Shown here piece by piece: positions 388-3,934 of a stretch of DNA of 38,342 nucleotides; the first letter of the stretch is position 1, and every line of letters begins with the position of its first letter. The stretch lies in NCBI GenBank assembly GCA_016787295.1, contig JAEUUX010000116.1, positions 1-38,342 on the forward strand. Direction: 5' to 3'. The notes beneath the pieces were generated by a model. That model ran no database searches and was not told the origin of the DNA. It saw only the letters and a list, made by a program, of their open reading frames with translations. Position numbers and translations under genes: made by a program. This DNA comes from Chitinophagales bacterium. GTDB lineage: Bacteria; Bacteroidota; Bacteroidia; Chitinophagales; UBA2359.

Positions 388-1743
388 ATGAAAAAATCAA
401 TTCTGTTTTTGTTAATCACTGGCTTTATTTGGCTTAAACTTACTGCCCAGAATGAATTTGAGATATATCCGAATGGATTTATCTATAGCGACCAAACAAT
501 GCTTAAACTACATCATATTGTAGATTCGCTCAATTTGAAATATAAAAGTTGCAATTTGAACCAAGTCTACTATTCTCCCTACCAAACATTTGGGCATATT
601 ATAGTCATCGATTCAACTATTAAAGAAGCCCAAAGAGATATCGACAAAGGTATTGGTTTTGAGAAATTTTTAGAGAAATACCCCCATGCACAAGTACGCA
701 AAAATACACTCATTGTTAAACAAAAATATGACCATTATTATCAAGACGCTCCAGACATTGAAATGGTGTTTTTTAGGGAACATAGTTTAAAAGAATACTT
801 TGGTGGAACAATCATCAAAGAAAACAAAAATGATTTATACCATCATCCTCAAAAAAACAGTTGGCTGCATGATTATCATGGAGACTATACCGACAAACTT
901 GTTGCCTTTTATTTTCCCGAAGCATTTCAATCCCAACCATTAAAAGCTAAATATGCTCAACAAATAGGCTATGCCGACTGCCTTATCGATACACTTACAC
1001 CCAAACTGAAAAAAGATGCTCAAATAGGTAAATTTGAAAAACCTGAAGACCTTTACTGCTTGTCAAAAATAGAAAAAACAGCGCTGCTCGAACAAATCCG
1101 AAGCATAGAAGTTATCGGGTATTGTAGTATGGATTCCAAACCACGACAACATGCTGCTACAATTGCTATGCTTTCTGCCGAAACTGCTAATTGGGAAGTT
1201 TTTTTAAAATCTCATTTGGATATTATGAACGACCATTTTGTGCGAGCGAGCGATGGTGATTATGCTTGGGGAAGAAGAAAAACGTACATTAAAGAATTAG
1301 AAACATTAGATATCAATGTTGTCGATTTATTATTTGGTATTGCGTTGACGATAGAAAATGCTGCTACCAATCACTATTATGGCAGTGTTGGGCGCATTGG
1401 TAGAGCCATCGCAGAATCCAAAGACAAAGATTTTTTTAAACAACAACTGCTACAGATGATATCAGACAACGAATTAGATTATCACAATCGCCTGCAAATG
1501 TATAAGCTATGTATGTATCTCAACTACTACAATGATAATACTGCTGAACAAGAAACTACAGAACAACAGTTGCTATATGCAGTAGCATCTTTACCTAATT
1601 CTTTGCTATTGGAATCGCAACAAAAAAGCAATCTTTGCCCTCCCGAAGACCCCCAACCTACCAATTTTCCATATACAACCATAGTAACCTATACCATTGT
1701 ATTGGCACTATTACTGTTGCTTTGGTTAATCAACCGATTGTGA
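388..1743 (+). CDS. Secreted protein with C-terminal exosortase-type sorting tail; predicted XrtK cargo
   Basis: A 451-residue protein of no family I recognise. Residues 1-20 form a Sec signal peptide (MKKS, hydrophobic core, likely cleavage after LTAQ or LTA). The long middle is soluble, mixed charge, with several Trp/Tyr/His-rich stretches and a helical C-terminal half. Residues 417-422 read CPPEDP, followed by a hydrophobic helix at about 431-448 and a lone Arg450 near the end. This order (Pro/Glu motif, helix, Arg) is the layout of PEP-CTERM-like sorting signals. The next gene, an exosortase, begins at a GTG that overlaps this stop codon (GTGA), so the two are probably translationally coupled. 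I infer that this protein is the enzyme's dedicated substrate; an ordinary C-terminally anchored periplasmic protein is the alternative. Confidence 0.7.
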   Translation: MKKSILFLLITGFIWLKLTAQNEFEIYPNGFIYSDQTMLKLHHIVDSLNLKYKSCNLNQVYYSPYQTFGHIIVIDSTIKEAQRDIDKGIGFEKFLEKYPHAQVRKNTLIVKQKYDHYYQDAPDIEMVFFREHSLKEYFGGTIIKENKNDLYHHPQKNSWLHDYHGDYTDKLVAFYFPEAFQSQPLKAKYAQQIGYADCLIDTLTPKLKKDAQIGKFEKPEDLYCLSKIEKTALLEQIRSIEVIGYCSMDSKPRQHAATIAMLSAETANWEVFLKSHLDIMNDHFVRASDGDYAWGRRKTYIKELETLDINVVDLLFGIALTIENAATNHYYGSVGRIGRAIAESKDKDFFKQQLLQMISDNELDYHNRLQMYKLCMYLNYYNDNTAEQETTEQQLLYAVASLPNSLLLESQQKSNLCPPEDPQPTNFPYTTIVTYTIVLALLLLLWLINRL

Positions 1744-2402
1744 TAAGTTGTTTTTACAAAGAACTACCAAAAATCCTAACAACAATAACAACACCTCTTA
1801 TTGTCCATACTACTCTCCAATTTCATCAATTGGCAATTTTATTATTATTGTTCATACCCTTTACCGCCATGCCAACTAATAACCTGCTATATTACTTCTT
1901 AACAGTTGGAGTTTTCATACTCCTAAAGTTGGGTTATATTAATGCTAACAATGACCAACTATTATTTCTATTACAACCTGTGAACAAACTTATCGAATTG
2001 TTAATGGCTTCACAAGCAGTGTACTCACCCGAAAAAGGATATTATCACCCCGATTTGAACATAACTTTTGACAAATCTTGTTCGGGATATAATTTTTGGG
2101 CTTTGTCTTTCCTGATTTTCTCTTATCTTATGCTACAATATATAGAAAAACCATGGCAGAAGTTATTGAATACTGTCTTTGTACTATTTGCAACTTATCT
2201 ATTTACAATATTTGTCAACACCTCCCGCATAATAGCCGCATTAGTAGCACAAGAACAGGCAAAATACTTCTTATTACCACATCATCATTCATTGCTTCAC
2301 ACCGCAATTGGCATCATCACTAATTTATCTTTTCTTATTGTGGCATATTATATGTTCGAAAAATTATTAAAGCAGTTCTATTACCATGGAGAATCTACGT
2401 AA
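1740..2402 (+). CDS. xrtK: Exosortase, probably exosortase K (XrtK)
   Basis: Multi-span membrane transpeptidase-like protein of about 220 residues. The exosortase signature residues are visible in order: Cys114 in FDKSCSGYNFW, Arg163 in FVNTSRIIAAL, and His187 in HTAIGIITNL (numbered from the GTG), each next to hydrophobic helices. The short length and the SCSGYNFW context fit exosortase K of Bacteroidota rather than the longer EpsH/XrtA enzymes. Exosortases are thought to cut C-terminal sorting tails and pass the protein on to a surface anchor. I chose GTG 1740 because it overlaps the upstream stop by four bases; the frame stays open further upstream to 1635, but that part overlaps the preceding gene and reads as non-homologous sequence. 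The next gene overlaps its 3' end by 17 bases. Confidence 0.8.
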   Translation: MISCFYKELPKILTTITTPLIVHTTLQFHQLAILLLLFIPFTAMPTNNLLYYFLTVGVFILLKLGYINANNDQLLFLLQPVNKLIELLMASQAVYSPEKGYYHPDLNITFDKSCSGYNFWALSFLIFSYLMLQYIEKPWQKLLNTVFVLFATYLFTIFVNTSRIIAALVAQEQAKYFLLPHHHSLLHTAIGIITNLSFLIVAYYMFEKLLKQFYYHGEST

Positions 2403-3030
2403 CTCCAAATGGCTATTTTTAGTTAATACCTTGCCTATAATACTACTATTTATTTTAGGTAGCAATCAGTTTTTTCTTATTAAAACCTTGCTGACTCCCG
2501 AAGGAGTACAATTGTGGTATTATTTTGCCATCAGTTTAATTGGTATAGGACTTTTAATTTTTTTGTATGCCTTATATTTAACCAAGCAAAACAAAATAGT
2601 TTCAGTATGGTATAGCCCTATCGCTTTCTTAATCCATATTTTATTTATCTTTCTGCACCTTTCCTATTCCGACAAGATGCTGCCCTCTTCCATTCCGCAA
2701 TGGTTGATATTAGATACAGGTTTTTTGTATGTTAGCACTTTTCTTATGTCAACTCTTGCCTATAGCGTGCTTGTGATAGTTGTATATCTTACTCCTTCCA
2801 ACAAAGACCACAGTATTGGTTTCAATTTTTTTAGCGCTTTAAGCGTACCTATCATTGGTTATGTCTTTACTCAAACTGCTCAAGCTCTTGTACACATTTT
2901 AGCTAACGATTTCCTTACATATACTATGTTTATCGTCATAATTACTTTAGTTCTTGTTTTTTTGTTTTTCATAACAAGATCCATGACAATGCTATTTATT
3001 ATGTTCATGAATAACAAAAACAAAGTGTAG
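2386..3030 (+). CDS. Six-helix membrane protein resembling the N-terminal domain of MSEP-CTERM proteins
   Basis: 214 residues with about six membrane helices (roughly 9-31, 44-66, 76-95, 106-135, 146-170, 178-207) and almost no soluble part. The opening (NSKWLFLVNTLPIILLFILG), SIPQWLIL near residue 104 and STFLMSTLAYSVLVIVVYLT near 116-135 recall, from memory, the membrane head of MSEP-CTERM proteins, which are about 900 residues long and are partners of exosortase K. Here the frame ends at TAG right after the last helix, with further stops behind it. The large soluble part and the sorting tail are absent. It overlaps the exosortase gene by 17 bases, so the two are one operon. It may be a stand-alone domain with an accessory role in sorting, or a decayed gene. 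Confidence 0.6.
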   Translation: MENLRNSKWLFLVNTLPIILLFILGSNQFFLIKTLLTPEGVQLWYYFAISLIGIGLLIFLYALYLTKQNKIVSVWYSPIAFLIHILFIFLHLSYSDKMLPSSIPQWLILDTGFLYVSTFLMSTLAYSVLVIVVYLTPSNKDHSIGFNFFSALSVPIIGYVFTQTAQALVHILANDFLTYTMFIVIITLVLVFLFFITRSMTMLFIMFMNNKNKV

Positions 3031-3854: not shown

Positions 3855-3925
3855 GGTCGGATGGCCGAGAGGCTAGGCAAGGCTCTGCAAAAGCTTCCAC
3901 AGCGGTTCGAATCCGCTTCCGACCT
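3855..3925 (+). tRNA. tRNA-Cys (anticodon GCA)
   Basis: A 71-nt cloverleaf. The acceptor stem is GGTCGGA/TCCGACC, the D-arm GCC/GGC, and the anticodon stem AGGCT/AGCTT with loop CTGCAAA, giving anticodon GCA. The variable loop is four bases and the T-arm is AGCGG/CCGCT with loop TTCGAAT. The unpaired base at 3925 is T, and U73 is the identity base of tRNA-Cys. No CCA is encoded. The short variable loop rules out tRNA-Ser. Confidence 0.93.
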
Positions 3926-3934
3926 CTTCAAAGC

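Follow-up and report, generated by a model that had tools for sequence, protein, structure and literature searches.

A reduced exosortase K/MSEP-CTERM cassette in a Chitinophagales genome, with a possible change of client

How is an exosortase supplied with a substrate when its gene stands in a compact locus of three genes, and is the secreted protein encoded directly upstream its dedicated cargo or only a neighbour? In the window (the whole stretch of 38,342 nucleotides of a Chitinophagales contig that was analysed here), this question is raised by three open reading frames, all on the + strand, at positions 388-1743 (451 aa), 1740-2402 (220 aa when counted from GTG 1740) and 2386-3030 (214 aa). 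The original prediction had taken them for a minimal exosortase K locus with a dedicated candidate substrate. The three genes are real and lie exactly where it had placed them, and both the exosortase K and the tailed secreted protein directly upstream of it are borne out; what does not survive is the conserved partnership between the two. The source genome (5.4 Mb, fragmented into 296 contigs) was the sole representative of its genus in our searches, and the three-gene arrangement is known from this one genome. Further along the window, at 3855-3926, lies a tRNA-Cys gene (gca), flanked by a folB-like gene and a gene for an rlmI-like methyltransferase (gene names assigned by eye).

The middle gene is, by the curated model TIGR04287, an exosortase K (XrtK) with a predicted protease or transpeptidase activity. 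Its product scores 140.4 bits against this model (cut-off 55; 141 bits in the genome search), which settles the exosortase claim of the original prediction in its favour, and it is the sole match in the 5.4-Mb genome, at the thresholds used, to the general exosortase/archaeosortase model TIGR04178. The family context claimed for Cys114, Arg163 and His187 of the 220-aa frame also holds, these residues (C71, R120 and H144 when counted from ATG 1869) being invariant across the 20 aligned XrtK rows; we take them to be the catalytic residues. The start of the enzyme is another matter. The TIGR04287 match covers the 220-aa frame only from residue 47 onwards, 21 of the 27 other XrtK loci have a longest frame of 165-192 aa, and in L062 and L216, two of the three closest relatives, this frame opens with a GTG at QT-KN, which aligns with the MPTNN encoded from ATG 1869 (in L032, the third, the frame is longer). 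Homology thus favours ATG 1869 over GTG 1740, giving an XrtK of 177 aa at 1869-2402 and a gap of 125 nt after the stop codon of the upstream gene. The codon-usage score of 1744-1868 (0.046) is no worse than that of XrtK itself (0.011), so that codon usage speaks against neither start. The GTGA overlap that had been proposed to couple cargo and enzyme depends solely on the 220-aa form, and is therefore doubtful.

In order to see what normally accompanies this enzyme, XrtK was searched in 60 relatives, in 396 genomes of the order and in 395 genomes of the class (a first scan of genome contigs with the XrtK protein had found no relative). At E <= 1e-8, XrtK occurs in 20 of the 396 order genomes and in 9 of the 395 class genomes, the window's genome being included in both counts; one of the 19 other order loci (G073) falls just below the TIGR04287 cut-off with 54.2 bits, and weak matches below the cut-off from the search of 60 relatives (G012, G027, G029 and G054) were left out. 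The gene next downstream of XrtK encodes an MSEP-CTERM protein (TIGR04286) in 25 of 26 testable relatives, namely at 17 of 18 testable loci of the order (19 other loci, with G004 excluded at a contig edge) and at all 8 other loci of the class, the latter being visible only as far as a flank of about 1.5 kb. In G004 a full-length MSEP gene lies on another contig than XrtK. The exception, G315, carries XrtK without an MSEP match anywhere in its genome; its enzyme (L066, 6877-7401) scores over the cut-off and no neighbouring ORF there has a sole C-terminal helix. The MSEP-CTERM protein is thus the usual neighbour of XrtK and, presumably, its dedicated target. The genes upstream of XrtK differ between loci (only L037 and L039 look alike), and none of the 128 neighbouring ORFs at the 19 other XrtK loci has a tail like that of the window's upstream protein.

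Two of the 17 order MSEP genes reach contig edges (G243 at 631 aa and G002 within the tail), and in the 15 complete MSEP tails that were aligned an M-S/T-E-P motif invariably stands ahead of the hydrophobic stretch. By hydropathy, the full-length G057 protein carries 11 transmembrane segments in its N-terminal region; further on come a weak match to VIT (494-583, E 0.0011, under the Pfam cut-off) and, at 913-931, the helix of the tail. At one locus (L218 of G564, 1-1493) the MSEP gene is read in two frames (profile positions 1-326 and 343-520), through a frameshift or a sequencing error, and other frames of 732-835 aa (L225 of G269, L226 of G016, L227 and L228 of G004) match only positions 478-577 or so of the MSEP model, its VIT-like part.

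Against this background, the third gene of the window (2386-3030) is identified by its sequence as the first 200 or so residues of an MSEP-CTERM protein. Its product scores 77.3 bits against positions 2-198 of the 920 of TIGR04286, below the cut-off of 150; the original prediction had rightly counted the six helices of a membrane protein, but missed that they are a truncated MSEP-CTERM N-terminus. The gene stands where this region is expected, next after xrtK and overlapping it by 17 nt, as at 7 of 18 other loci measured, including the nearest ones (G057, G243 and G559); the remaining spacings range from a 125-nt overlap to a 369-nt gap. The product keeps TM1-6 of 11 and stops in the TM6-TM7 loop, whereas TM7-11, the VIT-like region and the MSEP tail, with its motif, helix and basic end, are gone, so that a protein of about 940 residues is reduced to 214 and about 730 residues, sorting tail included, are lost. 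No other MSEP piece was matched anywhere in the genome, a search of the genome with a profile of MSEP tails gave matches at chance level (best E 0.42) and without the motif, and a tblastn search of the window for a remnant of the missing part gave only scattered matches at E 0.046 or worse.

What is left of the MSEP protein diverges in step with the enzyme. The retained module is 49% identical to that of G057 over 200 residues (XrtK: 48%), it retains all seven residues that are invariant in 18 rows, and the 17 comparisons of XrtK and MSEP divergence that involve the window lie within 1.3 s.d. of the line obtained from 136 pairs of other homologs, which indicates that the module has not decayed faster than XrtK. 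Both proteins, nevertheless, have diverged beyond their sisters (L032 and L062). The module departs at 6 of 36 conserved columns (2 of 37 and 1 of 36 in the sisters). Of the 25 columns of XrtK conserved at 70%, 5 are changed in the window, as compared with 1 of 23 in each sister and a range of 0-13 over all other rows, and the end branch in the XrtK tree measures 0.55 as compared with 0.15-0.35. These extra departures fit a changed specificity and, equally, a constraint that has relaxed. At the end of the truncated gene, the final 20 codons are not coding-like (score -0.098). The module was modelled as a six-helix bundle (pLDDT 82.5), for which a fold search returned no match at E <= 0.001.

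The origin of the cassette is probably foreign. The window's XrtK groups with those of G057, G243 and G559, which belong to three other families (support 99/93), and none of the seven XrtK rows from the window's own family falls in this group; together with a G+C content of 34% at the three-gene locus versus 41% in the remaining window, this is most simply read as horizontal acquisition.

The 451-aa protein encoded upstream (388-1743) belongs to an uncharacterised family: no NCBIfam model matches it at E <= 1, and no Pfam match clears its cut-off. It combines an N-terminal signal (signal-peptide-like, as judged by eye and alignment) with a helix at its very C-terminus, and its AlphaFold2 model (pLDDT 81.6) consists of an alpha/beta N-terminal part, a helical C-terminal part, an unstructured linker (416-428) and a terminal helix (429-450). 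Foldseek against the PDB found nothing at E <= 0.001, and the best VIA-align result (Z 8.3) is to a designed helical repeat, mostly over residues 203-417, and does not amount to a convincing fold assignment. A split MSEP gene, with the upstream protein as its C-terminal half, was considered and rejected, the upstream protein having no MSEP match.

Homologs of this protein occur in 11 other genomes of the 396 in the order. The named-genome collection gave 157 stretches with a homolog, the best 80 of which were examined (79 under Bacteroidota group names, and one Candidatus Kapaibacterium). These 80 include one homolog cut before its C-terminus (L182), one that ends early (L163) and four that apparently repeat members of the order set (L147, L171, L188 and L197, for G343, G261, G016 and G269); the alignment holds ten rows from the 12 order genomes, G016 (cut at a contig edge) and G092 (a 111-aa fragment) being left out. 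At L017 (G343, 28-2472) the homolog lies in a single 814-aa frame, with about 400 extra residues upstream and no Met at the usual start.

By the test that the original prediction set for itself, whether homologs occur mostly where there is no exosortase, a conserved partnership fails. None of the best 80 of the 157 homologs has XrtK or MSEP nearby (flanks of 4 kb or shorter), and 10 of the 11 other order genomes with the protein are without a TIGR04178 match at E <= 0.01 (G150 has one), so that the homologs live mostly in genomes without an exosortase and a conserved cargo-enzyme pair is rejected. The protein and XrtK, present in 12 and 20 of the 396 order genomes, are shared solely by the window's genome; with about 0.6 shared genomes expected and one observed, there is no association either way. 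The 451-aa protein accordingly stands as a candidate XrtK substrate for this genome alone, and its family cannot be called a conserved cargo of XrtK.

What makes it a candidate is its C-terminal suffix, residues 411-451 (1618-1740; QQKSNLCPPEDPQPTNFP), a private transmembrane extension consisting of a Pro-rich linker that includes Cys417, the helix 429-450 and an NRL end. The tail that the original prediction called sorting-type is real and coding: its score of 0.226 in the frame of the protein (core 0.176; other frames -0.258 and -0.056) exceeds the 95th percentile for wrong frames (-0.017). It has no M-S-E-P motif ahead of its helix, and its single basic residue is the Arg of the LINRL end. 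Among the best 80 of the 157 homologs, none of the 79 C-termini that are visible is hydrophobic, and the highest 19-residue Kyte-Doolittle mean within the last 60 residues reaches 1.19 as against 2.38 in the window's protein; the suffix is thus seen solely in the homolog beside XrtK, a single positive case. Of 445 ORFs in a sample of 14% of the genome, 5 have a C-terminal helix and no internal one, the window's included (it passes narrowly, at 1.56 for a limit of 1.6), and a looser rule gives 9 of 489, again with the window's included, so that such a tail beside the only exosortase would be a coincidence of 1-2%; with the internal-helix rule dropped, 30 of the 445 ORFs have a C-terminal helix of some kind. 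A search of the genome for the same tail gave two matches (E 0.79 and 1.5), the latter in the interior of a 610-aa frame.

A derivation of the suffix from an MSEP tail was rejected, a profile comparison aligning one column (probability 7.8%). Cys417 (window 1636-1638), which stands before the helix in CPPEDP, recalls the Cys of MYXO-CTERM signals as they appear in the excerpt of PMC11980579, with chance an equally possible source of the likeness.

The anatomy of the locus is that of a reduced XrtK/MSEP cassette. Our leading explanation, held tentatively, is that the target has been cut down to its membrane module and that the enzyme may now serve the unrelated neighbour. The original MSEP target would have lost its sorted part, the six-helix module would have persisted, free in the membrane, as a partner of XrtK, and the enzyme would now cleave or transfer the upstream protein at its new suffix, thereby releasing it or re-anchoring it outside the inner membrane. 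The shortened target, together with a neighbour's tail that is absent from the examined relatives, suggests such a change of clients without proving it, and the switch agrees with two patterns described for sorting enzymes, "sequence suffix" and "dedicated system" (PMC3237569, as far as the extract goes). It is weakened by the lack of an MSEP motif, the lone Arg at the terminus, the signs that constraint has relaxed and the restriction to a single instance. A competing account, somewhat less probable in our judgement but a serious one, sees a cassette in erosion, with MSEP truncated by a deletion, XrtK an orphan on its way to being lost and the tail nothing more than a C-terminal membrane anchor, without a part in sorting. 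A tail with neither MSEP nor a basic cluster, the chance-level MSEP-tail matches, the divergence of enzyme and module beyond their sisters and the precedent of G315, which likewise has XrtK without an MSEP match, all agree with it. Against it, the frame of XrtK is open and its conserved Cys, Arg and His are in place, the MSEP fragment ends in an inter-helix loop with its invariant residues kept and diverges no faster than the enzyme, and sole C-terminal helices are uncommon in this genome and absent from the 79 homologs with visible C-termini among the best 80 of 157.

The upstream gene might also be a bystander, with XrtK and the six-helix module serving another substrate or forming a membrane complex, as may also hold for XrtF and the protein associated with it. 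The persistent 17-nt overlap of the two genes and their divergence in step would agree with this, as does the existence of exosortase-associated proteins, for example that found with xrtF (PMC10936215, in the portion available); we consider it unlikely, given that the truncated MSEP protein has no sorting tail of its own and that the genome search with the MSEP-tail profile yielded nothing with the motif, a search that is blind to tails of other kinds. As for the conserved dedicated cargo family, coupled to its enzyme through GTGA, on which the original prediction was built, the two genes are indeed adjacent and on the same strand, and the upstream protein is tailed; with none of 80 homolog loci near XrtK and none of 79 visible C-termini tailed (best 80 of 157), with the XrtK start favoured at 1869 and with the variable genes upstream of XrtK elsewhere, this account is very improbable.

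Returning to the change of clients, its most specific form would be a splitting of the target, in which the N-terminal module became a partner subunit in its own right, the sorted domain was lost and the neighbour gained a sorting suffix of a non-MSEP kind. We regard this full scenario as rather doubtful, but, if true, it would mean that the retargeting of a sorting enzyme has been caught at a single locus, and that the N-terminal module of MSEP proteins is a partner of the enzyme and not cargo. The literature searched makes no mention of exosortase K or MSEP-CTERM, and we found in it no explanation for the long N-terminal membrane region of the target. With helices one to six parted from the sorted region and a newly tailed protein beside the enzyme, the locus offers a direct test of the role of the module, as well as of the latitude with which an exosortase recognises its signal. 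Even if the tail is merely an anchor, the locus still shows the erosion of a dedicated sorting pair.

Among known systems, the closest is the XrtK/MSEP-CTERM pair itself (TIGR04287/TIGR04286), with which the locus shares an enzyme over the cut-off and a downstream gene whose start and 17-nt overlap equal those of the closest relatives, and from which it differs in a downstream protein cut to 214 residues, with neither VIT-like region nor MSEP tail. The VIT-domain target of XrtN (TIGR04477) is matched by one MSEP protein at residues 188-587 (56.7 bits, under the cut-off of 250), but this shared region lies almost wholly within the part that the window has lost. In the same phylum, Flavobacterium johnsoniae likewise has an exosortase gene, xrtF, beside an exosortase F-associated gene; according to the excerpted text of PMC10936215, both were found in a colonisation screen and deleted, and mutants were affected in colonisation and biofilm formation. 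XrtF is, by its name, a member of another exosortase subfamily. The upstream protein, finally, resembles the substrates of the PEP-CTERM, GlyGly-CTERM and MYXO-CTERM systems, insofar as the available parts of PMC3237569 and PMC11980579 describe them: a signal peptide, a folded part, a linker and a terminal helix are placed on an otherwise tailless family. As in the dedicated sorting systems covered by the same two partial sources, moreover, the gene of the enzyme adjoins that of the tailed protein. The difference lies in the suffix, which has no known motif and ends with a lone Arg where a basic cluster would be usual.
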